NCBI GenBank assembly: GCA_022606425.2
Contig: JAHDVF020000211.1
Coordinates: 558,001 to 622,000, forward strand
Length of the DNA stretch: 64,000 nt
Reading direction: 5' to 3'
Source of the DNA: Lepidostoma basale
Lineage: Eukaryota > Arthropoda > Insecta > Trichoptera > Lepidostomatidae
In this document: one piece after another, positions 2,099 through 59,910 of the stretch
Layout of the letters: the number at the start of each line of letters is the position of its first letter
How positions within the stretch are numbered: position 1 is the stretch's first letter
Translations under genes and position numbers: made by a program
The notes under the pieces: generated by a model
What the model saw: only the letters and a program-made list of their open reading frames with translations
What the model was told of the DNA's origin: nothing
The model's database searches: none

Positions 2099-2143
2099 AA
2101 TATCAGACATGTTTCGGACAACCGGTCCTTCCTCAGTGATATT
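2099..2143 (-). ncRNA. Hammerhead-ribozyme-like motif (HH-a, left arm)
   Basis: Minus-strand order: stem I strand AATATCA; core CTGAGGA; one extra A; stem II GGAC-CGGTT-GTCC; GAAA; palindrome ACATGT as stem III; C as the cleavage-site base (GUC); then TGATATT, a perfect 7-bp complement to the first strand. All invariant hammerhead core bases are present. The single A between the core and stem II is not in the textbook consensus. Similarity is seen by eye; catalysis is inference. Confidence 0.6.
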
Positions 2144-2256
2144 ATAAAGATACATATTTAAAATATTATAAAATTGTTTACAAATATGATCAGTTTTTAG
2201 TCAAAACTGATCATATTTGTAAACAATTTTATAATATTTTAAATATGTATCTTTAT

Positions 2257-2301
2257 AATATCACTGAGGAAGGACCGGTTGTCCGAAATATGTCTGATAT
2301 T
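2257..2301 (+). ncRNA. Hammerhead-ribozyme-like motif (HH-a, right arm)
   Basis: Mirror copy of the left-arm motif: AATATCA (2257-2263), CTGAGGA (2264-2270), A, GGAC/GTCC stem II (2272-2284), GAAA (2285-2288), then TATGTC with one change in stem III (T for C at 2289), and TGATATT closing stem I (2295-2301). The change weakens the ACATGT palindrome in this copy. Confidence 0.55.
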
Positions 2302-2399
2302 TAATTAATATTTTTTAAGTAGTGTTGTATGTACAAAGTATATAAAATAGAAAAAGATAATTGTAAAAAAATATGTTAAAATGTATACTTAGTTAACAT

Positions 2400-2520
2400 C
2401 CACTAATGTTTGTGTCTTCGACCGGTTTCGACAGCTCGCTGCCATCTTCTGATAGCTGCTGCCGGTGGACCTGCCGAAACCGGTCGAAGACACAAACATT
2501 TTTTTCAAGGATTTTATCTA
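2400..2520. mobile_element. HH-c foldback, short and rearranged
   Basis: The outer arms ATGTTTGTGTCTTCGACCGG (about 2406-2425) and the matching complement near 2475-2500 face each other. The left arm holds, on the minus strand, CAGAAGA-T-GGCAGC-GA-GCTGTC-GAAAC then CGGTC: a hammerhead-like core with T3 changed to A. The right arm keeps only the last part, CTGCCGAAACCGGTC. Other HH-c pieces are at 36.3, 50.9 and 51.2 kb. Confidence 0.65.
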
Positions 2521-2600
2521 AATATACATTTTAAGAGATTTTTTTTCATTTTTTATATCATTATTTTAAATATTTACCATTGTCATTAATATCAATAGAA

Positions 2601-2807
2601 TTATTATTATTATTTTGTTCAATCGCTCTATACATCATGACAGCGCGAGCCAAATCGATGTACAGGGTATAGCTATCGTATTGATTCTCGTGATATGTGA
2701 TAGATAGCTAATCTATCGCCATTTTATTGTCACGTGAATTCTTCACCAGATCAAAGACATCGTAACAATCACACTGCCATCAAAGCACTTACCACCCTGC
2801 CACGAAG
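2601..2807 (-). mobile_element. SINE-1 copy carrying the LINE-K type 3' tail
   Basis: The SINE-1 body is present but its B box is deleted (near 2780-2790). Instead of the usual TTGGGTTCAAACGACC tail it ends, on the minus strand, with ACATCGATTTGGCTCGCGCT, TACATGAT-like sequence and an (ATT)n run at 2601-2616. The same ending is found on the LINE-K fragment at 23.9-24.2 kb and on the SINE at 44.5 kb. Confidence 0.75.
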
Positions 2808-2819
2808 AAGGTGGAGTTT

Positions 2820-3490
2820 TACATCAATACTCAAATAAAAGAGAATACTCGTATAATAATGTCCTCCTGTTAATTTGGAGATATTTCGTGTAAAAGTGAA
2901 TTGTTTTGGTCAATTTAACTGTTGCCGCACTTTATAATAGTTAATTGTGACACGTAATACGCTTGTACTGTTTTGCTGTTAAAATTATATTAGTTTTATC
3001 GTTTTTATAAAGAATTTTGACAGGTGTAAAAAAAAAATTCATTTGTTCCAATGACAATTTGAATAATTTCTTCAATATTATTTTTAAGTTCTTGCTGGTT
3101 AAGTGCCTAATTACAGCTAATTTAAAAAACGGTGGATACGTGTAACATAAATTAAATAAACACAAAAGTCCGGATCGTCCATGTCAACATGTGCAACATC
3201 GAAAAAAAACATTATGTGTTATTACATTATGTGCTAAGTTAAAAAAACGGTGGATTGGTGGAACATAAATTAAATAGTCAATATGTGCACCATCTAAAAA
3301 GAACAATTTGTGTTAAATTATTTTTATTTTGTTATTTTATTTTATATCATTGTATTTTATATTGTTTGTTTTAGATTTATTTTGTGGGTGTCGGACGATC
3401 GAAGTGTGCGCGGGAGATGCCTATTGGTGGCGATGAGGTTCGCAACCCATCACACCGAGTCTCTCGCGGGGCGAAAAGAGAAGGATGGAG
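2820..3490. other. Mostly AT-rich stretch without recognised features
   Basis: A short imperfect direct repeat (AAAAAACGGTGGAT... at about 3124 and 3243, with ATAAATTAAATA and GTCAA/CATGTGCA following) suggests a local duplication. The 3385-3490 part is more GC-rich and may be the upstream part of the LINE-A copy that follows, but I cannot align it. Confidence 0.4.
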
Positions 3491-3494
3491 TGCC

Positions 3495-3585
3495 GCATCA
3501 GTAAAAGTGTGACAGTCCATTCTTTCTGCCTACGCTTTCGGGGAGACGGCGTGATGGTTAGTTAGTTAGTTAGTTAGTTAATTTA
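3495..3585 (+). pseudogene. LINE-A 3' end
   Basis: Only the last codons remain (GTGTGACAGTCCATTCTTTC... to GGAGACGGCGTGA, stop near 3551-3553) followed by five GTTA units. It is a severely 5'-truncated insertion. Confidence 0.75.
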
Positions 3586-3589
3586 AGGT

Positions 3590-4200
3590 ATTCGTGTGCA
3601 ACTGATAATGAAATGCACATCAATTTCTCAGAAGTTCGTAACTTGAAATGGCGACCATGCCGAGTGAGTGTATCGAGTGTCCGTATAGTGCACACATGGG
3701 TACGGTTTGTTTTGAAATGTTTCTATTGAATTGCATTATCTTTCGCCGGCCAGTATCACTAGTGACGCCATAATGCGTTCCATACTGGTCTAAAGTAAAG
3801 TAACCCGATGTTATTGTCCGGCCCGTTGTCACACGTCCATTTTTAAATGTATGTGTAATGAGTCCGCTCGTCCATTTTTTAAGCTATTGTCTTGGGTTTT
3901 CAAAACAGTTGAACTCTGCCATTTGCTTTGGTGACACCAAGCGCACAAAAGACGCGGGAAATAAAATCTCGAGTGGCCCAAAAAGGCGACAGTTTGCGTT
4001 TTTAGATCGACAAGTAAACATCGCGAAGTGCCAAAAGAAAACATTGCCTTACTGCTAATATTCAACTTAATTTTCTTTTCTGCAAACCTTGGTTTGTGTA
4101 CCAACATCAACCTTTTTTAAATCTAAACAATATTTTCCAGTTTAATAAAGTCCATAAACAGTAACATTGTGTAAATTATATGAAACAGTGTCACATTAAA
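3590..4200. other. Single-copy-looking stretch with short ORFs of unknown status
   Basis: This part is less AT-rich than its surroundings and matches no repeat elsewhere in the window. An ATG in fair context at 3648 opens a 41-codon frame (MATMPSECIE...) to 3773, and a 93-codon minus-strand frame spans 3829-4110. I recognise no domain in either. It could be host sequence or an unrecognised repeat. Confidence 0.3.
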
Positions 4201-4204
4201 ATGT

Positions 4205-4365
4205 TTATAACGACGAATTGTTATGAATTAAAACACTTTTTTCCACTTTTGAGTTTATTTTGGTAAAGGTATTCGTATAAAGTGGAAAAAACAATGTTTT
4301 AATTCATAAAAATTCGTCATCATGGAATTCCGCAGTGTTAACGCCTTAAGTTTGTCTATCTAAAA
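4205..4365. mobile_element. HH-f foldback, centre-deleted copy
   Basis: The arms GACGAATTGTTATGAATTAA (4212 on) and TTAATTCATAAAAATTCGTC (about 4299-4318) are inverted around a shortened centre. The hammerhead-like part seen in the HH-f copy at 35.9-36.1 kb is missing. The right boundary (GTTAACGCCTTAAGTTTGTC) matches the inverted left boundary of that copy, which defines the element ends. Confidence 0.65.
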
Positions 4366-4369
4366 ATGT

Positions 4370-4945
4370 TTATAATTGAGCGTTTGTTTCTCGAAAGTCA
4401 AGAGCATTTATTTAATTGAAAGCTGATTTTTGACAATAATTTTATTTAATTAGAAAAATCAAAAGTGGTATCTTTCAACGAGTTTTATTTATAAACGTTC
4501 ATAAGAAAAGTAAGGTTAGATTAACAATATAAATTTACAATTGAATGTGAAATATTGGTGCATTACTGGCTACTTGAATATTTTATATTTTTTTCATATA
4601 CCTACATTATCATTTTATAAATATTTCCTTTTGCGAACATTGTCAATTCCTTATTTTTTTTTTATTATTTCGTTTTAACTAGCACGATAATATTTGTATA
4701 TAATATTGTAAAAAAAAAGTTATTTTCACATTTGATTTAAATTATGAAAATATTGAATCAGTATTGTGATCTAGGGGGCAATAGATTAAATTTTGCCCAT
4801 CTTTCATAAATCGCATGATTGTTTTAGATAACTAATATTAACACATACTTTGAAAAAGTAAAAAGAGTTTTAATGTTGAAGGTAAATCTTTTTTGGAAGG
4901 TGAAAATTTCTTCTTTCTTCTCCGTTAATATGAACATTTCTACTT
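4370..4945. other. AT-rich stretch, nothing recognised
   Basis: Low-complexity A/T runs; no coding frame, RNA signal or repeat family assigned. Confidence 0.4.
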
Positions 4946-4949
4946 TTCT

Positions 4950-5170
4950 TTTTCTTTCGGCCGTGTCAGGTCCCCCCAACGTTTTCGATCACTGTAGCAA
5001 AGACATCTCTGTCCTGCGCCACTTGGAACAGATTTTGTATTCTTGTCATTCCTGTCCATTCTTTTATGTTCCGCAGCCAGGACAACTACCTTCTACCAAC
5101 TCCCCGACGTCCCTCCACTTTACCCATTTTAATCAGTCAAAGGAGGTGGTATTTTTCTCCCCCTTTTCTA
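4950..5170 (-). pseudogene. LINE-B 3' end
   Basis: The minus-strand frame encodes the conserved end of an endonuclease/RT-type LINE: GKV-G-RGVGR-QL-WL-NIK-WTG...VAQDR-AFA, with several substitutions and a frameshift. The best copy is at 47.5 kb. Here the 3' end lacks the AAGAAGAAG tail. Confidence 0.7.
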
Positions 5171-5364
5171 CTTATTACAGAATATTTTGCTTCTGAAAAT
5201 GTTAAAGCGGAATATTTTATTATTAATTTACATACACGTTGAAAGATCAATAACAAAAAGAACGAAATATATATGCAAAGTTGAATGACAATATACGAAT
5301 ACGTGATATATTCAAATTCATACGTATTGTAGTCTGATACAAAATGAATGGAAGCGAATAGTCT

Positions 5365-5838: not shown

Positions 5839-5839
5839 T

Positions 5840-6700: not shown

Positions 6701-6709
6701 TTTATCAAA

Positions 6710-6802: not shown

Positions 6803-6869
6803 TTAAATTGAATAATTGTAAAATGTGTGGGGCTCGAATTAGGGTGGCCCTTGGAATATAGACAAAAAA

Positions 6870-7090
6870 AATATTTTCTAGAAGTTTTATTATATTTTAT
6901 GGGAATGACATGTTTCGCCACTCTAAGGCATTATCAAATGTGATTATATTAGATCAAATGTAACATTTGATAATGCCTTAGAATGGCGAAACATGTCATT
7001 CTCATAAAATATAATAAAATTTCTAGAAAACTGACGTTTTCATTCGTATTAATTATTTAATATGGAGTTTTACGTCATTGTTCAAGAAAC
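6870..7090. mobile_element. HH-g foldback
   Basis: The arms TTCTAGAAGTTTTATTATAT (6877 on) and the matching complement ending near 7030 surround TGATAATGCC...GGCGAAACATGTC in each arm. The right arm extends into GACGTTTTCATTCGTATTAA and GGAGTTTTACGTCATTGTTC. The core reads TTGATAA instead of CTGATGA, so it is a degenerate hammerhead-like motif. About 15 HH-g pieces are spread through the window. Confidence 0.75.
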
Positions 7091-7254: not shown

Positions 7255-7542
7255 TTTTTTATATACTTTGTATATACAACACCGTCTTTAATTTTTTTTA
7301 TTTAATTACATATCAGACATGTTTCGACAACCGGTCCTTCTTCAGTGATATATTAAATTGATTCATAATATTTGTTATAACAAAAGCATAAACGTTCCAA
7401 AATAAATCTTTATAACATTTGTCAAAACTGATCATATTTATAAACAATTTTATAATATTTTAAATATGTATCTTTATAATATGTATCACTAAAGAAGGAC
7501 TGGTTGTCCGAATTATGTCTGATACGTAATTTTTTTAAGTGT
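7255..7542. mobile_element. HH-a foldback with longer, diverged centre
   Basis: The left arm starts at TATATACTTTGTATATACAA and carries a minus-strand motif at 7310-7351. The right arm carries a mutated plus-strand motif at about 7483-7525 (CTAAAGA core, GAATT for GAAAC). The centre holds extra AT-rich sequence not in the 2.0-kb copy. Confidence 0.75.
7310..7351 (-). ncRNA. Hammerhead-ribozyme-like motif (HH-a)
   Basis: Minus-strand order: ATATCA, CTGAAGA, extra A, GGAC-CGGTT-GTC, GAAAC, ATGTC, TGATAT. Stem I is 6 bp and perfect. Stem II has lost one C next to GAAA, shortening it by one pair. The stem III palindrome ACATGT and the GUC triplet are intact. Confidence 0.5.
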
Positions 7543-7559
7543 CCGTTTTTTAGGGTTTT

Positions 7560-9308: not shown

Positions 9309-10603
9309 CAAGGGCGGTTTTTATAAGTCAGTGACTTTTTGAATAAAGGATGTATTTTTCGGCACATAAGCCGTTTATTTCTCAACATAGTCTCTTTTTA
9401 GCTCGATACGTTTTGTCCAGCGTTTTTCCAATTTTTTTTTTCCTTCCAAAAAAAATGTTTTCTCGAGGCCCTCAAAATAGGCGTTTGTTTCAGTGATGAC
9501 CTCTTCATTCGACCCAAATCTCTTACCACCCAGCCATTTCTTCAGGTTTGGTAACAGAAAATAGTCGCAAAGGGGTAAATCTAGAGAATATGCCGGACGG
9601 GGTAGCAGTGCGTAGCCCAATTTATGGATTTTTGCCATGGCGACTACACACGTTTGTACCCGTGCATTGTCTTGATGGAACAGCACTTTTTTCTTCGTCA
9701 AATGCGGTCGTTTCTGCTTCAAATCAATATCGAATCTGTCCAAAAGCTCTGAATAATATTCGCCGGTGATCTTTCTATCCTTTTCAAGGTAATCGATGCG
9801 AATGACATCACGTGCATCCCAAAAAACTGTGGCCATGACGTTGTTGGCCGACAAACCCACCTTTGCCTTCTTTAGTGCACGTTCACCCGGAGAAACCCAC
9901 TGTCTTGATTGTTCCATGGTCTCTGGTGTAGTGTGATGGATTCATGTTTCGTCTACGATAACGAATCGGGGCCAAAACCCTTTCCGATTGCATTTGAACA
10001 TCACCAAACACTCCTTTGAAGTGGTCACACGGTTGCGCTTATGGTCGAGTATGAGCAATCGCGGCAGCCATTGCGCGGATAGCTTTTTCATGTCCAAATA
10101 TTCATGTAAAATGTGATGTACTCGCTCAGTTGAGATGCCTACAGCCTCAGCCATCTCACGCACTTTCATTCTCCGATCGTCCAATTTTATTCCATGGATT
10201 TTATCGACAATTTATGGCGTGACGGCCTCTTTTGGGCGACCTGAACGTTCGGCATCACTTGTGCTGGTACGACCATAACAGAACTCAGTAAACTACGTCT
10301 TAACCATTGAAATTGATAGTGCAGAATCCCCATAGTATTTATCAAGCCTTTGCTTGGTTTCGGTGATGGTTTTTTTACGCAAAAAATAATGCTTAATCAG
10401 CACATGAAATTAACTTTTTTGCATTTTCGTTACAATTCATCGGATTGTTTGCTTTCAATGGCTGTCAAATACAAACAAATGGTGCAGCCTTCTCAAAATT
10501 GTACAGTAGTCTATTCATAGATGGCAGTTGACGGGAGTAGTATTGCATTTAAAGTTACTGCGCGGGAAATTCAAAAAGTCACTGACTTATCAAACTGCCC
10601 TCG
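9309..10603 (-). mobile_element. Complete mariner-family transposon, inactive
   Basis: Terminal inverted repeats of about 36 bp (9309-9345 and 10566-10603; both contain AAGTCAGTGACTTTTTGAAT on the inward strand) are flanked by TA duplications at 9307-9308 and 10604-10605. The length of about 1.3 kb fits mariner. The flanks join into a sequence (GTTGAAGTATCAAAGTGTTTC) that occurs uninterrupted at 30.05 kb, showing the empty site. The transposase is dead (next entry). Confidence 0.9.
9375..10450 (-). pseudogene. Mariner transposase pseudogene (DD34D)
   Basis: The intact protein would bind the terminal repeats and cut and paste the element into TA sites. Visible from N to C terminus: helix-turn-helix remnants (KTITETKQRLDKYYGDSALS, 10310-10400), the linker GRPKEAVTP, a second HTH (MKVREMAEAVGISTERVHHI, about 10100-10180), the first catalytic Asp in VDET (near 9942), the second in HQDNA, and the third 35 residues later in LCDYFLLPNL, followed by the usual WLGGKRF...DYVEK end with its stop at the 9375 side. 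In-frame stops replace a Trp near 10293 and a Glu in the linker near 10210, and the frame breaks between 9917 and 9942. The PD of the YSPDLAPSD motif is altered (YSLDLPLCD). Subfamily not assigned with confidence. Confidence 0.9.
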
Positions 10604-11954: not shown

Positions 11955-12544
11955 TTATAAATGGAGTTTTACAAAACTAATACGAGTACCTCAACCATCA
12001 ATAAATTATCAGATTTTTTTAAAAATTGCTTTATATAATGTCGAGTCTAGGTCGTCATAAGACTGATACGGGTTAATAAATTCAAGATTTAATTTCTCCT
12101 ATGCCTATAAGGTATTATATTCTTAAAACTTCGCTTAATAAATGATCAAAAAAATTATAATAATATATCCAGATGTATACCCGAAATGGCAAACGCTGGG
12201 TTTTTTTTTGGTACCACCGTTCCGTATGATTATCTTCTCGGAGGTTTTCCTGGATTATCAACAATATTGTATGCTCAACATTACCAACTACTTTGTAGCG
12301 CGAGTATAATGTATAAAAACAGAGTTCAAGGCTGGTGTGATGCCAAAGTACCTTCAGTATCACAATAATGGTAGTAATTATTCTTGGGATTGATGAAGTG
12401 TACGAAGTATCTTTTATCTCGTAACAACAGGAATAAGAACCTTTCAAAGTGTAAAAATACACAAATAAATCATTTGAATTCTCCTTACTTGCGCCATATT
12501 CTGAAGTTTGTTTCATTTCGTTTATTTTCATTATTATTATTTAT
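11955..12544. other. Spacer; no supported gene
   Basis: A 138-codon minus-strand frame (12115-12531) and a 60-codon plus frame (12186-12368) exist, but neither shows a known domain. The plus strand around 12200-12310 is moderately GC-rich and could be an unrecognised repeat. Confidence 0.35.
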
Positions 12545-13195
12545 TATATTCCTTCGTTGTGTCACGACTAGATTATTGTAATGGAATTTATGCAAACATT
12601 CCAAAACAACAAATAAACAAACTTCAATCTGCGTTCAACGCAGCAGCAAGGCTCATTAAAGGCATTCCAAAAAAGTCCCATATAACACAACATCTCAAAG
12701 AACTTCACTGGCTTAAAAGTCCAGAAAGAATCCAGTATAAACTCTGCTGGACAGTCTTCAAAGCGCTACACGGAATGGCACCAAGTTATATATCTGAACT
12801 CTGTATAACGGACAGCCTAAATTCACGGAAATCCACACTTCGCTCGGCGAACTTCTCAGCAATAGGAAGATTAGTTGAGCCGAAGCGTTGCCCCAGTACA
12901 AATTTCGGGGATCGAGCGTTCGCGGTAGCCGGTCCATCAGCTTGGAACAATCTCCCTTCACACCTTAGATGCATAAATGATCCGACAGATTTCAGATCTA
13001 AATTGAAAACCCATCTTTTTCAATACCCAATTTAAACAATTATACTTTGTTCTGCTATACTTTTAAACCGATCGTTTTTTAAGCGGTCACATTTAGATTT
13101 TTAAGATTTAAAACACGTCTTAATGCGCCCTTGAGGTGATTACATCACTAAAACGGCGCTTTAAAAGTTAGCATATTATTATTATTATATTATAA
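12545..13195 (+). pseudogene. L2-like LINE 3' end, copy 2 (longer)
   Basis: The frame 12508-13035 includes SRLDYCNGIYANIPKQQINK, AFNAAARLIKG, HITQHLKELHWLK, YKLCWTVFKALHGMAPSYIS and the FGDRAFAVAGPSAWN block. This is the thumb/C-terminal region of a CR1/L2-like reverse transcriptase, intact over about 160 codons. The 3' UTR and (ATT)n tail match copy 1, 1 kb upstream, very closely. Confidence 0.9.
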
Positions 13196-13204: not shown

Positions 13205-13555
13205 TACTTAAAATCATATATCATTAAACAAAATAATTTTATTTTTTGTTTCTTGAACACTGATGTAAAACTCCGTATTAAATAGTCAATACAATTGAAA
13301 ACGTCAGTTTTCTAGAAGTTTTATTATATTTTATGGGAATGACATGTTTCGCCCTTCTAAGGCATTATCAAATGTTTCATTATTTTTGTTGTTACCATAA
13401 TTTGATAATGCCTTAGAAGGCATTATCAAATGTTTGATTATGTTTGTTATTACCATAATTTGATAATGCCTTAGAAGGGCGAAACATGTCATTCCCATAA
13501 AATATAATAAAACTTCTAGAATTCTGACGTTTTCATTCGTATTAATCAAAATAAT
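13205..13555. mobile_element. HH-g foldback with duplicated centre
   Basis: The outer arms run from GTTTCTTGAACACTGATGTA (13249 on, left) to the GACGTTTTCATTCGTATTAA end (right). The centre contains the unit GGCATTATCAAATGTTT(C/G)AT...ACCATAATTTGATAATGCCT twice in tandem (13363-13470), so three core copies lie in a row. Only the outermost right core retains GGGCGAAACATGTC. Confidence 0.75.
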
Positions 13556-13559: not shown

Positions 13560-13740
13560 TATTAAATAGTCCATTGTTTTGGCCGGAACACAATGATACC
13601 TTAACATTTTAAAACTGTTAAATTAAATAACTTTGTTTTTGTATCACAATTTTATTTTACGCGACAGCTGTTTCATCAACCTATGTTGACATCATCAGGT
13701 GTTACAATAATATATCAAATGTCAAATTTTCGTGATTTTT
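13560..13740 (-). mobile_element. HH-b element, single arm
   Basis: It contains GTCCATTGTTTTGGCCGGAA (outer end, also at 30.08 kb inverted), an AT-rich arm and the motif at 13661-13705. The opposite arm is missing. Confidence 0.7.
13661..13705 (-). ncRNA. Hammerhead-ribozyme-like motif (HH-b)
   Basis: Minus-strand order: GTAACAC, CTGATGA, extra T, GTCAAC-ATAG-GTTGAT (stem II, with T at the last position where other copies have C), GAAA, ACAGCTGT-type palindrome (CAGCTG), C, GC. The core is complete. Stem I pairing with the downstream GCG is poor. Confidence 0.5.
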
Positions 13741-13899: not shown

Positions 13900-14130
13900 G
13901 GTGTGACATTTTTAAATATAATAAAAAACATTTGTATAATTCGTATAAAAACCACTTTATTCGTTATAAACACCAACCGGTTTCGCCCCCGCCGGAGCTT
14001 CGTAAGGGTAACAGAATATATTGAATAGTATATTTTGTTGCCCTGAAGAAGTCCCGGCGGAAGCGAAACCGGTTGGTGTTTATAACGAATAAAGTGGTTT
14101 ACATACAAATTTTACAAGTTTATTATTATT
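13900..14130. mobile_element. HH-d foldback
   Basis: The arms ACCACTTTATTCGTTATAAA (about 13951 on) and the exact complement near 14078-14100 flank a 25-base AT centre. Each arm contains GAAACCGGTTGGTG preceded by a GC-rich hairpin. The best motif is in the right arm. Confidence 0.75.
14038..14080 (+). ncRNA. Hammerhead-ribozyme-like motif (HH-d)
   Basis: TTGCC, CTGAAGA (14043-14049), extra A, GTCCCGGCGGAAGC hairpin, GAAA, ACCGGT palindrome, T, GGTG. Stem II is imperfect here (the left-arm copy reads GCTCC-GGC-GGGGGC, which pairs better). The cleavage triplet would be GUU. Confidence 0.4.
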
Positions 14131-16324: not shown

Positions 16325-17250
16325 TAACTCGTGTCATGCACGCGCGTCGATTTCTTTGACTCCTCACAAGGCCACCGTTCAATATTTGATTTATTTGATC
16401 GTGCCACGTTTTCCTCGGTCTTCCTCTATTTCTGGTTCCATTTACATCATTAACATATAATTTTTTACCATTCTTTCCATATGTCCAAACCATCTTAATG
16501 ATCCTTTCATTATTTTGTTCATGACACCATCATTCGCACCGCATTCACTTCTTATATTTTCATTCGACACTCTATCATACACAGAATATCCACACATTCG
16601 TCTAAGAGATCTCATTTCTACTGCATTTATTCTACTTTCATCCTTCTTTGCCAGTTCCATGCTTCGCTTCCATACATAAGGGTCGGTAGAAGAACACCAT
16701 TGTGCACTGCCATTCTAGCTTTTTTGGATAGGTTTTTGTTTGCGATGACAACTTTAAGTGCACCATTCACTTTGTTGCCTGCCCTAACCCTTCTTTCAAT
16801 ATCCCCCTCCACTCGCCCATCTATTGCAAACATACATACCTAACCTAACCTAACCTAACCCTTCTTTCAATATCCCCCTCCACTCGCCCATCTATTGCAA
16901 ACATACTACCTAAATGCGCGAACTCAACAATTTGCTCCAAATTTTCACCATTCACGCTAATGTTGCAGACTGTCATGGTTTCTTCCTTTTCAAAAATCAA
17001 TACCTTGGACTTATTAACATTCGTCATAAGATCATTTCGCATGCATACCTCATACATACAATTCACCAAGACTTGTAGTTCATGCTCGTTGTCTGCAAGT
17101 AGGACAGCGTCATCCGCATACAAGAGACAGCTTACTGACACACCGCTCATTTTGGCACCTACATCCAACCCTTTCAGCTCTTTCATACATTTGTCCATAT
17201 ACAGATTAAATAACCACGGGGACATTACGCAACCCTGTTTGACATAATGA
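16325..17250 (-). pseudogene. LINE-A fragment: longest RT piece in the window
   Basis: The minus strand encodes, from 17250 downwards, QGCVMSPWLFNLYMDKCMKE, the YADD box (17109-17120), NKSKVLIF, VNGENLEQIVEFAHLGSMF, NLSKKARMAVHNGVLLPTLM, then RGRPRKTWHDQ and CMTR near 16330. The QGC and YADD motifs are the RT palm; the rest is thumb and connector. A 71-bp rearrangement with CCTAA repeats (16785-16906) breaks the frame. The end is truncated before SAYPFGETA, so there is no GTTA tail. Confidence 0.88.
16785..16906. repeat. 51-bp duplication separated by telomere-like (CCTAA)n
   Basis: The block starting TAACCCTTCTTTCAATATCC occurs at 16785-16835 and again at 16856-16906. Between them is CCTAACCTAACCTAACC and one more unit (16839-16860), the insect telomere repeat TTAGG read on the other strand. 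The LINE sequence at the junction already contains CCCTAACCC, which could have served as seed or microhomology. Confidence 0.85.
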
Positions 17251-17600
17251 AAAAATATTATGTTTATAATTAAATGTAAAACAGCTGATTCACCATATTG
17301 AAACCAACGTATTCGTATAAAGTGTATACCATAGTGAGATTTCAAAGTTAAGGTCACGTGATTGTTGTGCAAATTTCGCGATTATGCTGAGACTAGCGTC
17401 AATTGGTTTCGTAAGCAGTGCCTACCCACTCACTGGTCAAGTCCTCTCCACGAGCAAATGGTGCAAAGATCAAGATATTTGTATTCATTTTTCTCGTTAC
17501 ATTGCACATCGGAAAGTTTATATTTAGTTTATTCGCGTGACGTATACGTTTGTAATGTTGTATTGGGTATCTGCAAAGTATCTTCACTGATACAACTAAC
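17251..17600. other. Spacer, nothing recognised
   Basis: No repeat family or coding domain assigned. Confidence 0.4.
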
Positions 17601-18339: not shown

Positions 18340-18490
18340 ATCTGTATCATTATCATTTGATAATGCCTTAGAACGGCGAAACGTGTCATTCCATATGATA
18401 TTTATAAACTCCTAGAAGACAGACTTTTTTATTCATATTAATTTTTTTATATGGAGTTTTACATCATTGTTCAAGAAACAAAAAATAGTG
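18340..18490. mobile_element. HH-g right arm
   Basis: CATTTGATAATGCCTTAGAA, CGGCGAAACGTGTCATTCC and the outer ATGGAGTTTTACATCATTGT end near 18450-18475; the left arm is missing. Confidence 0.65.
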
Positions 18491-19475: not shown

Positions 19476-19828
<353 letters not shown>

Positions 19829-29942: not shown

Positions 29943-29990
29943 GTAACACTTGATGATGCCAACATCGGTTGGCGAAACAGCTGTCACGAC
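29943..29990 (+). ncRNA. Hammerhead-ribozyme-like motif (HH-b, right arm)
   Basis: GTAACAC, TTGATGA, T, GCCAAC-ATCG-GTTGGC, GAAA, ACAGCTGT palindrome, C, ACGAC. Only C3 departs from the invariant hammerhead core; stem II is perfect and the GUC triplet is present. Confidence 0.5.
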
Positions 29991-30184
29991 ACTCAGTGAA
30001 TAAAAATAAATTGTGATATAATAACAGTGTTTTAAATTTTAACAGTAATAATGTTGAAGTATCATAGTGTTTCGGCCAAAACAATGCGCTATTTAGTTTT
30101 TTTGTTTGTTAAAACTAACCGGTTTCGCTCCAGTTTATTTTATAGCCCTGACGAAAACTAGTCAAAGTGTTCTCATGGTATTTT

Positions 30185-30395
30185 TAATAATGCCACACTA
30201 CAAATTAAGTGCTTCAAACGGAAGTTTTATTAAAGTTAATGGGAATGACGTGTTTCGGCTTGCTAAGACATAATCAAATGTCAATCAAATTTGATAATGT
30301 CTTAGAAAGGCATGTCATTTCCATAAACTATAGAGAACAGACGTTTTCATTCGTTTTAATTATTTAATATGGAGTTTTACATAATTGGTCAAGTA
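30185..30395. mobile_element. HH-g foldback
   Basis: CGGAAGTTTTATTAAAGTTA, GGAATGACGTGTTTCGGC, CTAAGACATAATCAAATG, then the inverted half GATAATGTCTTAGAAAGG with GCGAAA deleted, and the outer GACGTTTTCATTCGTTTTAA. Confidence 0.65.
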
Positions 30396-31270: not shown

Positions 31271-31532
31271 CTTTTTTTTTTTTTTTTCTTTTTTTTTTTT
31301 TTTTTACGTATACAACAGGTCGCTTGAACCCAATTACAGTATACAATTTGTTTAAGCTGATATATTGATTCTCGTGACATGTGACAGGTAGCCAATCTAT
31401 CGCCATTTTATTGTCACGAGAATACTACGCCAGACCAAAGACAGTGTGACAATCACACTGCCATCGCCGGGAATCGAACCCAGAACCTTCGGAATGGGAA
31501 TCAGAGCTCTTACCACTCTGCCACGAAGGTCG
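31271..31532 (-). mobile_element. SINE-1, full length with long poly-A
   Basis: Plus-strand T runs (31271-31305) represent the poly-A tail; then AACAGGTCGCTTGAACCCAA, the body, B-box complement GGGAATCGAACCC and A-box complement CCACTCTGCCA, ending GAAGGTCG. Complete. Confidence 0.92.
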
Positions 31533-31789: not shown

Positions 31790-31900
31790 TTAACTTTGTA
31801 CACAACACCAACTTTATTAAAAATTAAAATAAAATAAAACAAACATGTTTCGGACACAGAAACCCTTCATCGGTGATATAAATATTATAAATAGTAAACA
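31790..31900 (-). mobile_element. HH-a-like left arm, diverged
   Basis: CTTTGTACACAACACCAACT at the outer end; then, on the minus strand, ATATCAC, CGATGA for CTGATGA, A, GG-rich hairpin GGGTTTCTGTGTCC, GAAACATGTTTG (31841-31880). The layout is kept while stem II has a new sequence. Confidence 0.55.
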
Positions 31901-35430: not shown

Positions 35431-35885
35431 ACACTAATTACAATTATATTTTTATAATATGTGATGTGTTCGACTCCCTTTTAGGAAGTTTTTTCGATTT
35501 AATATACTTTCTACACACACTTAATTAGCAAAAATTCATTTTTTTTAAACTGTATTTGAAGTATCTTTGTATGCAAATAGATAATGAAATAAAGCTGATT
35601 TAACATTACACATTTAAGCACGTTTTCAAATCAGATTGTTTAATAATACGAACACGAATTGAGTCTCATTTGTCATATTACGTGCAATTAGTTACGATAA
35701 AAAAAAATGTACATTATGAACAAAACACAACAAATTATCGGAAGTAGTTTTTATGACTTCTTCATCTAAGCTTCAAGTTAGTTATTAACTTCAGTTCCTT
35801 GATACCAAAATTGTACGTAATATAATGATGAACAGAAGTTATTGTCTGATCGGTAAATGTAGCCAACTTTATTTTTACTACAAAT
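35431..35885. other. AT-rich spacer
   Basis: No feature recognised. Confidence 0.4.
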
Positions 35886-36126
35886 CATAGACAAACTTAA
35901 GGCGTTAACACTGTGGAATTCCATAATGACGAATTTTTATGAATTAAAACACAATTTTTTCCACTTTTGCATTTATTTTTCTCGACATGTTTCGAAGGCA
36001 TGCGTTCGGGAGAATGGTATAAACTGTTTATATCGTTCTCCCGGCGATGAAGGTGTAAGCCTTCGAAACATGTCTAGAAAAATAAACTCAAAAGTGGAAA
36101 AAACAGTGTAATTCATAAAAATTCGC
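35886..36126. mobile_element. HH-f foldback
   Basis: The arms TTTTTATGAATTAAAACACA and TTTCCACTTTTG...ATTTATTTTTCT are mirrored on the right. The inner parts read, in outward orientation, CCTTCGAAACATGTCTAG and CCTTCGAAACATGTCGAG with GGCGATGAAGG upstream. The centre GGGAGAA-CGATATAAACAGT pairs with itself. Here GAAAC-ATGT-C is kept but the CTGAnGA half is only GATGA. Confidence 0.75.
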
Positions 36127-36139
36127 TACTACAAATGTT

Positions 36140-36310
36140 GTCTACGGGTTCTATTTTCTAGAAGTTTTATGAGAATAACATATTTCGCCTGTCTAAGGTA
36201 TTATCGAATGTGAACGAAACATGTCATTCCCATAAAGTATAATAAAACTTTTAGAAAATAGAAGTTTTCATTCGAATTAATGACTTAATATGGAGTTTAA
36301 CATCATAAAT
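36140..36310. mobile_element. HH-g foldback, short
   Basis: TTTTCTAGAAGTTTTATGAG, CTAAGGTATTATCGAATGTG and CGAAACATGTCATTCCCATA then GAAGTTTTCATTCGAATTAA. Confidence 0.7.
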
Positions 36311-36324
36311 AATGAAAATAAAAA

Positions 36325-36400
36325 AGCCATCAGAAGATAGCAGCGAGCTGCCAAAACCGTTCGAAGACACTAACATCAGTGGATTTTAACTAAATATATA
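36325..36400 (+). mobile_element. HH-c right arm
   Basis: CATCAGAAGATAGCAGCGAG, CTGCCAAAACCGTTCGAAGA, CACTAACATCAGTGG: the HH-c motif with GAAAC mutated to AAAAC. Confidence 0.55.
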
Positions 36401-36519
36401 ATACATTAAAAAATATATATAATTTCATGATGGACAATGAACTTCTACCAAGAAACTTCGAATTACAATATATTTTTTTTGACGTTTAACATCATTGTTC
36501 AAGAAACTATAAATAATAG

Positions 36520-45039: not shown

Positions 45040-45265
45040 TAACTGTTTAATTAAAACACTGTTATAGAATAATGATGGGTTTTTTTTAATTGTCGCGACA
45101 ACTGTTTCGCAACCAATGTTAGCATCATCAGGTGTTACAATCAACTGTTCAATAAAGTTGATTGTAACACCTGACGATGCTAACATCAGTTAGCGAAACA
45201 GCTGTCGCGACAATTTCAAAAGAAATAAAATCAGTTGTATTCTATATGTGTTTTAATTAAACAGT
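45040..45265. mobile_element. HH-b foldback, both arms
   Basis: The arms meet at CAATCAACT-GTTCAATA-AAGTTGATTG (45138-45174). The left motif (minus, 45092-45138) reads CTGATGA, T, GCTAAC-ATTG-GTTGC, GAAAC, AGTTGTC. The right motif (plus, 45174-45212) reads CTGACGA, T, GCTAAC-ATCA-GTTAGC, GAAAC, AGCTGTC, GCGACA. Confidence 0.82.
45174..45212 (+). ncRNA. Hammerhead-ribozyme-like motif (HH-b), core intact
   Basis: CTGACGA (N7 = C, allowed), extra T, perfect 6-bp stem II GCTAAC/GTTAGC, GAAA, ACAGCTGT palindrome, C17. Compared with the 29.9-kb copies, stem II changed at two paired positions with pairing kept (GCCAAC/GTTGGC to GCTAAC/GTTAGC), a compensatory change. Confidence 0.55.
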
Positions 45266-46085: not shown

Positions 46086-46220
46086 CTTAATTAAAACGAA
46101 TGAAAACGTCTACTTCTTCTAGAAAATTTATTATATTTTATGTGAATGATATGTTTCGCCTGTCTTAGGCATTATGAAATGTAATTGATATCATAAAGAC
46201 ATATGCCAATGCCTTTAGAC

Positions 46221-50682: not shown

Positions 50683-50849
50683 CAAGCGAAACTTCTTAAC
50701 TTTGAGTCTAAGACTTATATTTTTTATTAAATCAATCGGTGATTTATTAATTTTAAAGGAGAATGAAGAAAGAATGGTAAAACAAATCATTGTAAATAAT
50801 AATGTTTAAATAATATGTTTAACATTTACATGTAGTTAGTTTAATTCCA

Positions 50850-50905
50850 CGTGATTTAGTGGCTTCGGCCGGTTTCGGCAGCTCGCTGCCATCTTCTGGT
50901 CTCCT
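50850..50905 (-). mobile_element. HH-c arm with hammerhead-like motif
   Basis: Minus strand: CAGAAGA, T, GGCAGC-GA-GCTGCC (perfect stem II), GAAA, CCGG, CCGAAGCC. T3 is A and the stem III palindrome reads ACCGGC. Confidence 0.6.
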
Positions 50906-50984
50906 GATATATTTTAAATATGTATAACATTATAAAAATATGTATTGATTTCCATATTCATATTCAATAATTAATACATTCCAT

Positions 50985-51165
50985 ATTCAATAATTAATAC
51001 GAATGAAAGCGTGTGTAGAAGTTTTATTATAGTTTATGGGAATTACATGTTTCACCTTTCTAAGGCATTATCAAATGTTGGACATTAACCTTTCTAAGGC
51101 ATTATCAAATGTTGGACAATAAAACTTCTCTAGAAAACCGACGTTTTCGTTCATACTAATTATAC
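50985..51165. mobile_element. HH-g foldback, rearranged
   Basis: ATTACATGTTTCACCTTTCT, AAGGCATTATCAAATGTTGG (twice, 51062 and 51098), then ACTTCTCTAGAAAACCGACG. Both inner halves have the same orientation. Confidence 0.65.
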
Positions 51166-51184: not shown

Positions 51185-51265
51185 TATTCCACTTTTTTTT
51201 AATTTCCATCTATTTCGTCAGCTCGGTGCCATCTTCTGAAGCTGCCGAAACCGGTCGAAACTAAA
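51185..51265. mobile_element. HH-c foldback, minimal
   Basis: Left, minus: CAGAAGA, T, GGCACCGAGCTGAC, GAAAT. Right, plus: CTGAAGCTGCC, GAAACCGGTCGAAA. Both halves meet at CATCTTCTGAAGCTG. Confidence 0.55.
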
Positions 51266-51269
51266 CTCA

Positions 51270-51935
51270 AGCAGTGTACAATTAAATACATATATCATTA
51301 AAGATTTTTTATATGTTTTAATTATTTACAATCGTGAAATTTCAATTAACATATTAACTAATATTCTCAATCACGTGAATCGTAGCATCATAAATTTCAT
51401 AATGTTTTATTTATATATTTTTTTATTAATCACCAATAGTCGAAAGTATATAACTTACCTATCCCAATGTGAAATAAATTGATAACCATATAAACATTAT
51501 AATAATAAAAAAGTGATAATCAGCGTCATCACATTTTTATAATAACATAAATACGATTACTCTTAGCATATGAATCGAAAAAATATTTACGATTTGATCT
51601 TGAAATATACTTGTTTTATACATTTTAATATTAATAACGTTGTTTTATCTATAGTTGTAAAATAAACTCTTGTATATTTAATTATTCCCAAGTAGGCGTA
51701 TGCGTGATTTAATCTACTTTGCTTGAGAATTACAAGAATTGAAATCGTAGTTCAGCACTCTTCATTTTTAATGATCGTGGATCTCGCATTCGTGATTATA
51801 TTGTTATTTATGATATTGTGTGATGGATCAACTTAAAGGTAAGGATTGATTATCTTAAACATGAACACGGATGCATTATTATTGCTAGACTGGATTAATT
51901 ATAGACTATAAAATAGACGTACGCTTAAATAACTT
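51270..51935. other. AT-rich spacer
   Basis: No feature recognised. Confidence 0.4.
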
Positions 51936-52650: not shown

Positions 52651-52858
52651 GTTTTTTTTTCTTGTATACAACAGATCGTTTGAACCTAATTACTGTATAC
52701 AATTAATTTTAGCTATTATATTGATTCTTATGACATTTATTTATTTTATTTATTTTATACCGAAGACGGTGTGATAATCACACTGCTATCGCCGGGAATC
52801 GAACCCGGGACCTTCGGAATGGAAGTCAGAGCTCTTACCACTCATCCACGAAGGTCGA
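52651..52858 (-). mobile_element. SINE-1 with central rearrangement
   Basis: TTGTATACAACAGATCGTTT tail, a TTTATTTTATTTATTTTATA run replaces part of the body, then GGGAATCGAACCC (B box) and TACCACTCATCCACG (A box with one change). Confidence 0.85.
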
Positions 52859-54050: not shown

Positions 54051-54067
54051 CTATCATACAACCTTTT

Positions 54068-54458: not shown

Positions 54459-54459
54459 A

Positions 54460-55704: not shown

Positions 55705-56237
55705 TAAAAAATACTTTTCAAAATCGAATATCATCAAAATTTCATTAATCTTTCCGTCAGTAGAGTTCCGTCAGTGTAGTTACTATAGTTTTATTATAGA
55801 AAACAGCTTTTCTATTATATGCACTTAAATAAAGAAGTTTTTTAAGGCTACTTAATTCCCACTATTCTGTATTTACCCACGACGTCACACGTCATAACGA
55901 CGTCAATCATTTCAAATGTAAAATAGGCTATTTTAAATTGTTGGATAATGAAATACTATGCTTTGTGGGTACAAAATGTTGAATTTAAACGAAATGGATT
56001 TAAAACCACTTAATGATTTTGAACGAGCAGTGTTCGCGAGCGGTGCGTATGTATCGTATCGCGCCAACCCGAGCACTGCTCGCGCGTTTCGACTTGTTTT
56101 CTTTACATAAGGTAAACTAACGAACAACGACAACTTTCAAATTATGTAAATTCTTTAAATAAAAAATAAAATCATCTAACATTTTTGGTTAACAATTTTT
56201 ATTATTATATCACCCGAGTATTATATTAATATTTTCA
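55705..56237. other. Spacer with a GC-rich inverted pair
   Basis: CGAGCAGTG (56023) and CACTGCTCG (56083) flank a GC-rich stretch with TTCGCGAGCGGTGCG. No gene recognised; it could be a decayed MITE or promoter-like DNA. Confidence 0.35.
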
Positions 56238-56905
56238 ATGGCACATATCAGGGCTTGTTAAGTCTGGTTTCTTCCAACTGAGACAGCTAAAGCACATACG
56301 GAGATGTTTACCTGTTGGTGAAGCTAGTACCCTCGTAAATTCTTTTGTAGTGTCACGGTTAGATTATTGCAACGGAATGTACACTGGATTGCCAAATAAT
56401 CAATTAAGCAGAATACAAAGCGTATTTAATGCTGCTGCCCGATTGATTATGGGGCAACAAAAATACTGTCATATCACGCCGCTCCTGAAGGACCTTCATT
56501 GGCTTAAAATCCGAGAGCGAGTAAAATATAAATTGTGTTTGACAGTGTTTAAGGCTCGACACCAGAGAGCGCCAGCGTATATATCGGACCTCTGCGTGAC
56601 ACCCATGCCAACGGAAAAGCAATGTTCACTCCGATCAGTAGAAACAAGTGCAAACAACATAGCTATTCCAGTCAGAGCCAATAAAGCATGTTTCTATGAT
56701 CGTGCTTTCAGCGTTGCGGGTCCGTTGGCGTGGAATAGCCTCCATGTTAGTATTAAGTATGAGGATAGTGACGTTAAATTTAAGAAACATCTTAAGACTG
56801 CACTGTTCGGTCAGTCATTTCCTAGTGCGCCCTTGGAGTAATTGATTTTACAAAACGGCGCACTTAAAATACAAATCATCATAATAATAATAATAATAAT
56901 GGCAA
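56238..56905 (+). pseudogene. L2-like LINE C-terminus, copy 3 (different subfamily)
   Basis: One uninterrupted frame from about 56242 to 56841: HISGLVKSGFFQLRQLKHIR, VVSRLDYCNGMYTGLPNNQL, FNAAARLIM, HITPLLKDLHWLKIRERVKY, KLCLTVFKARHQRAPAYISD, FYDRAFSVAGPLAWNSL, KKHLKTALF, stop after PLE. This is the post-palm part of a CR1/L2-like reverse transcriptase, about 200 codons without a break, diverged from copies 1 and 2. The 3' end has GTGCGCCCTTGGAGTAATTG, ACGGCGCACTTAAAATAC and (ATA)n. Confidence 0.9.
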
Positions 56906-56909
56906 AGAA

Positions 56910-57185
56910 ACGGTAATCCTGTGGGATAACGGTCAATTATAATAATTAAATCGATTTTTTTAAATTATATTGGTAATTTATAGAGTTCATATTCGCTTGG
57001 CACAGCCAGGTCGCGATTTAGCCGCTTCGTTTGCTTTTATTCGGAACGGAGGAAAAATACACGTAATATTTTTAGCTGATCTGTCAAACCGTCTCGAATC
57101 TACGAAAATACTTTAAGATGCCATTGTTCAAATTGTTCGCTGTTAAAATTGTTACACTCCTCTTTCTTATTTTATGTATAATATG
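56910..57185. other. Spacer
   Basis: No feature recognised. Confidence 0.4.
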
Positions 57186-57189
57186 TTAT

Positions 57190-57615
57190 TCTTCTACTTC
57201 TTCTCCTTAGTGATGATCTTGTAATCTGTTAAAATATCAAAGTTTGTCCTGTGACGAAGACGTGCAGCTTTCTCTCCATCTCTTTGGTGGTCGTCCAGAT
57301 AGTCGGCGGCCCTCTGGAGTCTCGCGCATCATGATCTTGGGTCTCCTCGCTGGGTCCGTCCTCTCGACGTGGTCCATCCAGAATCGTCTTCTCTGCGTAG
57401 TTCATCTCATAATATCGTCAATTTTGTAGAATCTGCGAATCTCTTATTTGGGTACCCTACCTCTCCTTAAGGGTTCTACCCACGATATGTCACAATGTTT
57501 TCATTTCTGCTACTCTAGGGAAAGTTTGGTTCTGACAGTGTCTGCTCTTGCTTCGATTTCGTAAGTCATTATGTGTCTGACGCATGTTTTGTCGATCCTG
57601 ACTTTGCTATTTATG
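57190..57615 (-). pseudogene. LINE-E RT C-terminus, degenerate
   Basis: Minus strand: KVRIDKTCVRHIMTYEIEAR, ADTVRTK, RRRFWMDHVERTDPARRPKI, MMRETPEGRRLSGRPPKRWR and ESCTSSSQDK, then GAGAAGAAGTAGAAGAA. Several stops. Confidence 0.78.
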
Positions 57616-57619
57616 TAAG

Positions 57620-57803
57620 TTATTATTTATTTTTAAGAAATCCATTAGTAACGCAAGCCTCTAAAAAAATACTAATACAGTTTTATTTAAACATAACATT
57701 ACACGCATTCATTTGTAATAATACGCTAGGTATAATTTAAAAGTATTTTCAATAACAAAATATTCAATTTTCTGACGTAATTTCGAACAACTTTCGAAGA
57801 GTG
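57620..57803. other. AT-rich spacer
   Basis: Nothing recognised. Confidence 0.4.
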
Positions 57804-58030
57804 TCGACCTTCGTGGCAGAGTGGTAAGAGCTCTGACTTCCATACAGAAGTCAAGGGTTCGATTCCCGGCGATGGCAGGGTGGTTTTCACACTATCTTTG
57901 GTCTGGTGTAGAATTCCCGTGACAATAAAATAGCGATAAGTTAGCTATCTCTCACATGTCTATATAATAATAGCTTAAAACAAATTGTATTCAGTAATTG
58001 GGTTCAAACGACCTGTTGTATAAAAAAAAT
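57804..58030 (+). mobile_element. SINE-1, full length
   Basis: CGACCTTCGTGGCAGAGTGG, B box GGTTCGATTCC (57857-57867), body, TTGGGTTCAAACGACCTGTT and poly-A. Confidence 0.92.
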
Positions 58031-58081
58031 CGACGTATTCCTCTCTCGCTCTCTTGTATACAAAATATTCTCTTACTAATG

Positions 58082-58420
58082 CGTATCTTCTACTTTCGAT
58101 GCCGTGTCAGGTCCTCAAAACGTTGACGATCACTACAGCAAAGGCATCTCTATCCTGCGCCACTTGGAACAGGTTCTGAACTCTTGTTATTCCTGTCCAC
58201 TCTTTGATGTTCTGCAGCCAGGACAGCTGCCTTCTACCACGTCTACTACCCGACGTCCCTCCACTTTACCCATTAATATCAGTCGAAGAAGGTGGTATTT
58301 TTCTCCCCTTAGCACATGGCCCAAATATGAGACCTTTCTAATTTTCACACTCTAAAACAGCTCTTTATTGGCTCTGGCTCTCTGCAGTACGTCTGCATTA
58401 CTGACCCTCTCGGTCTGATG
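58082..58420 (-). pseudogene. LINE-B C-terminus
   Basis: Minus strand: [40 protein letters not shown]-type frame break, [43 protein letters not shown] follows at the 3' end. Confidence 0.8.
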
Positions 58421-58517
58421 TGTATGCATGAAAATAAAATGTATGATGTTAACATTTTACTGCAAAATATGTATTAATAAAAGTTTATATATAAATTGTA
58501 TAGTATTATATAGTTTA

Positions 58518-58790
58518 TATATCGTCGGTTCAAAGGTAGGTAAAACTCATTAAGTGATATTTTGGTCAAAATTTTGATTTTTGCATTTTCTGCATCAGAT
58601 TTGTGAATTCTACGTCAGGAAATAATCACCAAGTGTTTTTATTAAAGAATAACTGTTATTCTTTAATAAATACACTTGGTGATTATTTTCTGACGCAGAA
58701 TTCACAAGTCTGATACAGACAATGCAAAAAAATTGTTTTTACCAAAATGTCACTTAATGAGTTTTACCTTTGAACCGACGATATAAATAT
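58518..58790. mobile_element. Foldback MITE with near-perfect arms
   Basis: Arms of about 130 bp meet at TAAAGAATAA-CTG-TTATTCTTTA (58643-58665). The termini are ATCGTCGGTTCAAAGGTA inward, flanked by TATAT-like sequence on both sides. No hammerhead-like core; it is a separate family from the HH elements. Confidence 0.8.
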
Positions 58791-58849
58791 ATAGTTTATA
58801 TATAAATTTTATAGTATTATGCTACTTTGCTGTAGTATTATTATTGACG

Positions 58850-59210
58850 CGCGTGCATGACACGATGTATGAACGACCTTCGTGGCAGAGTGGTTACGAG
58901 CTCTGACTTCCATGTCGAAGGTCCTGGGTTCGATTCCCGGCGATGGCAGTGTGATTGTCACATTGTCTTTGGTCTGGTGTAGAATTCACGTGACAATAAA
59001 ATGGCGATAGATTGGCTACCTATCACATGTTACGAGAATCAATATAATAGCTAAAAATATAAAAATTTTATACTGTAATTGGGTCCAAACGACCTGTTGT
59101 GTACATAAAAAAAAAATGTTGAGGAAGCGAGAGAAATATGTCAGGAAAGAAAAGTGTGGCAGTCCTTTCTTTCTGCCTACCCCTTCGGGGACACGGCGTG
59201 ATAGTTAGTT
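58850..59210 (+). pseudogene. LINE-A 3' end split by a SINE
   Basis: ACGCGCGTGCATGACACGAT and GTATGAA (58850-58873), the SINE, then TGTTGAGGAAGCGAGAGAAA to SAYPFGDTA (59117-59200) and TAGTTAGTTAG. Joining the two parts gives the normal LINE-A order. Confidence 0.85.
58874..59116 (+). mobile_element. SINE-1, full length, inside LINE-A
   Basis: CGACCTTCGTGGCAGAGTGG, B box, body, TTGGGTCCAAACGACCTGTT and poly-A. No clear target duplication at the junctions. Confidence 0.93.
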
Positions 59211-59214
59211 AGTT

Positions 59215-59784
59215 TATATATAAAACTTATACATAGTGTGCTAAGGTAGATTTGCATTCTCAAATTATTGAAGAGAGCTTATTTAGAAAAAAAAATTAGG
59301 AGGATCCAATAAAATGGATGACGTCAGTGTATTATCGGATGGTATAAATTATTTAAATACTCATAGCACAACAAAACACTTCACAAATGATTAGCGCCTA
59401 AAAAACTAGATAAACAAATTAATCGTGACAGCCTCTCAACTCCCCTCTCTGCGATTCTGGTGTGGAGGACCACATCCGAAGTCTGAACAAAGTTTGACCT
59501 TTTGGTGTTTACTCGCGTTTTGGCTCCCAAGTGCACAGAAAACATCAATCGTTAACCGCCTCCATTCGCAAATAATTCTGAAGCACTTTTGAGACAATAA
59601 AATTTTATTGCATAAAATTATACTTTTTTAAAACCAATTAATGCAACTTCTCAAGGCGGTTTTATCCATTATATTTCGTACATATTTTAACACCAACAAT
59701 AAATATTATATTTTTTTCTGTCGTATATGTTCGTTCCGAATCCGTAGCAACAGAATAATGAATATGCCCAGACATATATTTGGA
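59215..59784. other. Spacer, some single-copy-looking DNA
   Basis: 59430-59560 is less AT-rich but has no supported frame. Confidence 0.4.
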
Positions 59785-59910
59785 TATACTTAGGAAATTA
59801 AAAATAACTTTGTTTAATCCAATAATTATTAAAAAATATTAAAAAACACGACATGTTTCGGAGGACACCTCCATCTTCAGATGTAAAAATACAATAAAAA
59901 CCAAACAATG
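59785..59910 (-). mobile_element. HH-h element arm
   Basis: TAACTTTGTTTAATCCAATA at the outer side, then the motif at 59846-59884. Only one arm is present. Confidence 0.6.
59846..59884 (-). ncRNA. Hammerhead-ribozyme-like motif (HH-h), complete core
   Basis: Minus strand: ACAT (stem I, pairs with GTGT), CTGAAGA, extra T, GGAGG-TGT-CCTCC (perfect 5-bp stem II), GAAA, ACATGT palindrome, C17, GTGT. No departure from the invariant core apart from the extra T before stem II. Confidence 0.6.

Follow-up and report, generated by a model that had tools for sequence, protein, structure and literature searches.

Hammerhead-bearing foldback repeats of Lepidostoma basale (Trichoptera) as probable head-to-head ends of Penelope-like elements

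Hammerheads of Penelope-like elements (PLEs) are usually minimal, without helix III and tertiary contacts, as described in the consulted part of PMC6155905. The Anolis Poseidon element PAc carries a hammerhead and is called the first PLE active in vitro; according to PMC11167929, its protein is a predicted dimer, both strands of the target are cut and extended by PLE protein in vitro, two adjacent internal RNA start sites account for a tail, and the hammerhead cleaved only with the protein and was dispensable for insertion in vitro. The mode of PLE insertion is poorly known, and many small, well-bounded PLE ends would form a natural record of insertions. Here we analyze a 64,000-nt stretch of the Lepidostoma basale genome (GCA_022606425.2, contig JAHDVF020000211.1, 558,001-622,000, forward strand; hereinafter the window) that is rich in short foldback repeats with a hammerhead-like motif. 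These motifs are very probably the hammerhead sequences of PLE pseudo-long terminal repeats (pseudo-LTRs) or 3′ ends, and the foldbacks short, 5′-truncated PLE ends inserted as head-to-head pairs. Where an initial annotation of the window had allowed for an undescribed class, the hammerhead foldbacks of this genome would thereby be identified as ends of PLEs, in which hammerheads are already published.

The motif was described by a descriptor (core, a single A/T, stem II with 3 bp or more, GAAA, stem III as a palindrome, and H17) written post hoc, with the sequence already seen, which matches the window 12 times compared with a mean of 0.04 per shuffle (300 dinucleotide shuffles). A covariance model (CM), trained on an ungapped 43-column alignment of 20 copies of families A, D, E and T from outside the window, and not on window copies as first proposed, gives 28 window matches at E ≤ 1, 19 of them at E < 0.01; the strong ones come mostly from families used in training. 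The two hammerhead layouts singled out by the initial annotation, at 2099-2143 and 59846-59884 on the minus strand, are both recovered with high significance (2100-2142 and 59844-59886, the latter being the best match of all). The window was thought to hold at least eight families; we find seven (A, B, C, D, E, G and T), family K occurring only outside it, and eight monomer queries together cover 6250 of its 64,000 bases. The copies are as follows.

59844-59886 (-): family E hammerhead, ACAT CTGAAGA T GGAGG-CCTCC GAA ACATGT C; CM 59.7 bits, E 1.4e-17, and descriptor
59775-60001 (-): family E monomer, single copy, short (untailed) 3′ end
2100-2142 (-): family A hammerhead, left arm, stem I AATATCA/TGATATT; CM E 5.8e-13
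2258-2300 (+): family A hammerhead, right arm; CM E 1.3e-11
1988-2357: family A pair in head-to-head order with a tail on the left end only; flanked by TAATTGTAAAAAAA, a 14-bp direct repeat (1974-1987, 2358-2371)
7310-7351 (-): family A hammerhead, left arm of a pair; CM E 3.2e-10
7483-7525 (+): family A hammerhead, right arm of the pair begun at 7310; CM E 5.9e-6
31836-31879 (-): family A-like hammerhead, CCGATGA core; CM E 5.2e-6
4211-4362: family G pair in head-to-head order with the E/G tail on the right end; flanked by AAAATGTTTATAA, a 13-bp direct repeat (4198-4210, 4363-4375)
35886-36126: family G pair in head-to-head order with the tail on the left end; flanked by TACTACAAAT, a 10-bp direct repeat (35876-35885, 36127-36136)
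6901-6943 (-): family T motif, TTGATAA core, left arm; CM E 2e-11
6961-7003 (+): family T motif, right arm; CM E 1.8e-12
13335-13377 (-): family T motif, left arm; CM E 1.3e-13
13454-13496 (+): family T motif, right arm; CM E 8.9e-11
18351-18393 (+): family T motif; CM E 1.7e-8
51038-51080 (-): family T motif within a family C pair; CM E 6e-10
46142-46184 (-): family T motif, decayed; CM E 9e-7
30241-30283 (-): family T motif, decayed; CM E 8.7e-6
36171-36213 (-): family T motif, decayed; CM E 9.3e-5
45091-45137 (-): family B motif, left arm; CM E 0.002
45165-45212 (+): family B hammerhead, right arm, CTGACGA, ACAGCTGT; CM E 0.0036, and descriptor
29944-29991 (+): family B motif, TTGATGA core; descriptor, and CM E 0.044
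13657-13704 (-): family B hammerhead, CTGATGA core; descriptor, and CM E 0.053
14037-14080 (+): family D motif, right arm; CM E 0.016
13969-14012 (-): family D motif, left arm, CTTACGA core; CM E 0.33
2347-2451 (-): family C arm, CAGAAGA core
36305-36440 (+): family C copy, CAGAAGA core
50749-50928 (-): family C arm, CAGAAGA core, left arm of a pair enclosing the T sequence
51240-51332 (+): family C arm, 5′-truncated, right arm of the pair begun at 50749

The hammerhead layout is supported by its core, by three helices, by covariation that includes stem I and by partner exchange at C3-G8. A looser core-only pattern, with no pairing demanded, occurs 166 times in 321 kb (the window and loci L001-L050) compared with 21 times in the reversed sequence, and the outer three stem II pairs are all formed in 87 of the 166; exchanging partners among matches lowers the share to 15%. 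Over 18 distinct rows, 90.9% of 198 cells are paired (66.3% when shuffled, 31-48% when slid) and 48 cells are changed on both sides (17.2 and 3-17, respectively). The initial annotation had named covariation beyond shared ancestry in a genome-wide alignment as a test of the layout. Of five measures of covariation in the copies aligned here, four lie above both the shuffled and the slid controls; the count of pairs that change on both sides stands at 8, which does not improve on the shuffled value of 7.2 and is reached in 196 of 500 shuffles. The support from stem II, stem III and C3-G8 is partly selected, because the training copies had been chosen for pairing in both stems and for C-G, U-G or U-A at C3-G8 (found as 12 C-G, five U-A and one U-G), and stem III is nearly invariant, so that its pairing adds little. 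Stem I, which was unselected, is paired to 77.8%, and each of its four pairs shows changes on both sides; its partner strand, missing from the layout first annotated, pairs over 7 bp in family A. A scan of the window with Rfam release 15, suggested at the outset, yields no hammerhead match at E ≤ 5, the stems being minimal and non-standard; Rfam microRNA-like scores in the window coincide with foldbacks. One extra base separates A9 from stem II in 70 of 71 descriptor rows (286 kb, the window and L001-L028), while the remaining row reads one already included site (L016, 7869) a second time. Reportedly, to go by a reference title of De la Pena and Flores (2001) cited in PMC6155905, an extra core base also occurs in a viroid hammerhead.

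The core itself varies between families. CUGANGA...GAA is present in families A, B, D (L013 copies) and E, and families T and K carry U3-A8, an exchange seen in TTGATAA and known from natural hammerheads according to the accessible text of PMC3088659. The CTGAnGA core initially ascribed to all families holds for five of the 12 window descriptor matches, the others reading TTGATAA (six) or TTGATGA (one). Family C, with stem II GGCAGC/GCTGCC, had been included under that core and reads CAGAAGA in the window copies read (2451-, 50898- and one within 36305-36440+); copies outside the window in L011, L014 and L024 show other non-CTGAnGA letters. The CAGAAGA core, and the CTGTCGA core of PLE2 (see below), would be expected to lower or abolish self-cleavage.

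The link to PLEs comes from the reading frames. In the 769-Mb assembly around the window, the only genome copy number counted, that of a family E 24-mer, is 58 exact occurrences, and the reversed 24-mer has none. Loci L001-L028 were picked for containing this 24-mer, so family E is over-represented among them. A genome search for GIY-YIG endonucleases gave at least 62 matches (150 of 541 candidates scored), and the stretches over 27 of the 62 were examined. By translated endonuclease, 11 loci belong to a PLE designated PLE2, nine to PLE1 and two to bacterial UvrC-like proteins, and three (L041, L044 and L046) lack a clear endonuclease frame. Family E is the 3′ end of a PLE, because PLE1, read from the endonuclease onward only, runs into the E monomer, with the E motif in sense 3′ of the endonuclease at E ≤ 1e-9 in seven of nine loci (L032, L033, L038, L040, L045, L053 and L054). 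PLE2 carries RVT_1 and GIY-YIG in a single frame (494 and 758 aa) and stands in head-to-head pairs at L030 and L031; its CTGTCGA core, an A6 change, is kept across L029-L031, L034, L035, L037, L047 and L049.

Family G has its own hammerhead but the tail of E, and family C shows weak similarity to the PLE2 end (66% over 110 nt, E 4e-5). Families A and T share with PLE ends only a two-position 3′ end architecture, and B, D and K only the head-to-head order. On anatomy or weak similarity, families B, C, D and K may also belong to PLEs. The families first looked unrelated, and their stems and flanks do differ; the architecture of PLE ends is nonetheless common to them. The two strongest GIY-YIG matches examined with long frames, C102 and C729, were rejected as PLEs on reading as bacterial UvrC-like proteins; the long UvrC-like frames lie at L051 (G000:C102:22500-24000) and L052 (G000:C729:134400-135900), and contigs of 1.64 Mb and 251 kb in the assembly appear to be bacterial, from a symbiont or a contaminant.

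The foldbacks are ordered pairs. Among same-family clusters of two hits in L009-L028 and the window (11 clusters with three or more hits were set aside), 30 of 38 have the order (-)(+), none (+)(-) and eight are tandem, and all eight families are represented among the 30. Copies of family E break off at variable points on the 5′ side and stop at a defined 3′ end, single-arm copies occur, and the two arms are of very unequal length in several pairs (L014, L017 and L027). Direct repeats flank the pair as a whole: repeats of at least 8 nt surround 10 of 18 E pairs (three look low-complexity) compared with 8.6% of 302 mismatched flank pairs, and repeats of at least 11 nt surround five of 18 compared with one of 302. 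We also considered, and dismissed, that family T always stands beside another family: a neighbor lies within 150 nt in 38 of 137 insertions, no higher than the random mean (43.7, standard deviation 6.5), and T's neighbors are explained by density.

The 3′ ends take one of two positions. Family E ends at ...CCTAAGTAT or about 45 nt beyond it (the tail), and this tail is common to family G; family A has a tail of its own, about 46 nt long, and the 3′ ends of T fall into two groups, at query positions 55-69 (18 of 63 hits) and 95-124 (30 of 63). The E/G tail (for example, window 4322-4348) contains a TGGAATTCCA palindrome, a possible stem-loop comparable to the PAc start site. Exactly one long (tailed) and one short end are found in 23 of 27 inverted pairs of the three families counted (E 16/18, A 2/2, G 5/7), whereas independent choice at equal shares would give about 13.5 (binomial chance of at least 23, 1.6e-4, calculated by hand). 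Pairs were formed by matching each left end with the next right end, and arms known only by their tail (L005, L026 and one G arm in L027) were scored long; omitted were the E ends of L004 (no left end located), L023 and L025 (both ambiguous), G-probe hits beside E tails in L004 and L006, and unpartnered ends. Four pairs depart from the pattern, namely L014 (long/long), L019, and G in L022 and L023 (short/short). The one-tailed pairs suggest that reverse transcription starts twice in each insertion, once at each of the two start sites. In our search of open-licence papers we did not find this rule stated as a number in the accessible parts of PMC3846280 and PMC11167929, and it is possibly new, PLE hammerheads, head-to-head pseudo-LTRs and an optional tail being already published.

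On the reading that we favor, the PLE protein would nick AT-rich DNA on both strands, and each nick would prime reverse transcription of PLE RNA at an internal start site, with the distal (tail) site used for one strand and the proximal site for the other. Both complementary DNAs (cDNAs) would stop short towards the RNA 5′ end and then join in the middle, and the ribozyme might trim multimeric PLE transcripts. Our counts fit two separate starts joined mid-element and add that the site usually differs between the ends of one insertion. A bolder version, to which we give somewhat less than even chances, is that every PLE event makes two cDNAs, one per target strand, with a fixed split in which the halves of a dimer work at the tail and the proximal site; the one-tailed head-to-head pair would then be the normal product, and end-only foldbacks a class resembling miniature inverted-repeat transposable elements (MITEs) that spreads by this asymmetry and keeps hammerheads of many sequences. 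Since the motif in a foldback transcript would pair with its own complement, ribozyme function would be likelier in solo, tandem or multimeric transcripts. One-tailed ends and a single duplication per inverted pair make the idea of two ordered starts per insertion directly testable.

Several observations weigh against this reading. The PLE1 linkage is weakened by two loci, L042 with a weak E motif (E 0.0034) and L048 with none. The PLE2 motif, CTGTCGA...ACCGGTC about 710 nt past the start of the endonuclease match, appears in eight of 11 loci in a relaxed scan, with a CM score of only 14.1 bits (E 0.067), and no PLE open reading frame (ORF) is tied to families A, B, D, K or T in the loci examined. 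Eight of 18 E pairs have no direct repeat of at least 8 nt, and some of the repeats found are low-complexity. The two arms of eight of 18 E pairs (L001 being ambiguous) are broken at the same monomer position to within 10 nt; independent truncation does not predict this, and two starts would account for it only where short palindromes let the cDNA ends anneal. In vitro, no difference between the strands was seen in the choice of start site (PMC11167929). Nor is the hammerhead clearly better conserved than its flanks: over 30 E arms (a few of them family A), the mean major-base share is 0.92 in stem I and the core, 0.83 in stem II and 0.94 in GAAACATGTC, compared with 0.89 upstream and 0.84 downstream, so that the core stands only slightly above the upstream flank.

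The shared arm breaks are more easily explained by self-priming, in which the end of one cDNA (or antisense RNA) would loop back and prime its own copying, a route suggested for rotifer Penelope elements; PMC3846280 favors such priming on an antisense template, and one family A pair, with arms 99% complementary over 106 nt, points the same way. Fold-back copying would give equal ends, whereas 23 of 27 pairs have unequal ones, and it sits poorly with the different arm lengths in L014, L017 and L027. We regard it as a live rival, if an unlikely one, and it would leave the PLE identity of the foldbacks unaffected.

Readings outside PLEs fare much worse. Inverted repeats, target-site duplications and variable centers would suit DNA transposons of the MITE type whose terminal inverted repeats hold a hammerhead-like hairpin by chance, but fixed terminal inverted repeats do not bound every copy on both sides: there are single-arm copies, variable 5′ breaks opposite a fixed 3′ end and two alternative 3′ ends, and family E runs on into a PLE reading frame, all of which makes such an origin very improbable. 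Retrozymes, tandem hammerhead retroelements that are likewise short and non-autonomous, could account for the eight tandem clusters; tail-to-head arrays are not dominant, however, and with 30 of 38 clusters inverted and the linkage to PLE1 we rate them slightly lower still. That the motif is chance or plain repeat background, as the empty Rfam scan of the window and the post hoc descriptor might suggest, is scarcely credible given the excess of descriptor matches over shuffles, the 58 exact copies of the E 24-mer against no reversed ones, a CM built without window copies and the covariation above controls.

The window contains other repeats. Mariner-type transposase frames lie at 60074-61048 (+) (Transposase_1, HTH_48) and 9375-9941 (-) (Transposase_1). 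An RVT_1 fragment at 16845-17381 (-) resembles a long interspersed nuclear element (LINE), and 12505-13035 and 56230-56841 appear LINE-like by eye, with no Pfam match. A 324-nt palindrome at 58490-58813, 84% self-complementary, is without the hammerhead motif, and a 601-nt inverted repeat at 61676-62276 has arms of about 120 nt, 216 nt between them and letters that look tRNA-like by eye. A (TA)n run of about 350 bp spans 19476-19827, and tRNA matches barely over the Rfam cut-off, at 31459-31530 (-) and 52784-52855 (-), are perhaps heads of short interspersed nuclear elements.

Among the papers listed by our literature searches, no title or abstract start describes hammerhead foldbacks, and GAAACATGTC searched as text gave nothing relevant. 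The elements seen here are nevertheless close to known ones, compared below with the accessible parts of the sources. Like the GIY-YIG PLEs of Adineta vaga (PMC3846280) and Anolis PAc (PMC11167929), they have an ORF with reverse transcriptase and GIY-YIG domains, head-to-head pseudo-LTRs and target-site duplications; the published duplications are of 8-10 bp and the published optional tail, on one inverted pseudo-LTR, is of about 31 bp, compared with a tail of about 45 nt here. In contrast to those PLEs, most copies seen here are end-only pairs without an ORF, in at least eight families. The PAc ORF starts at stem II; the ATG of stem II was rejected as an ORF start here, a stop following about 11 codons later in E and PLE2 (by eye). 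Cervera and De la Pena in 2014 (via PMC6155905) described minimal hammerheads, with little of helix III, from the terminal repeats of PLEs, which those seen here resemble; here an extra base follows A9 in 70 of 71 rows. Animal retrozymes (PMC7229834) are likewise small non-autonomous hammerhead retroelements, but form tandem units, whereas the copies here are mainly inverted pairs tied to PLEs. The TTGATAA cores of families T and K match the U3-A8 hammerheads of PMC3088659, the exchange being fixed here in whole repeat families.

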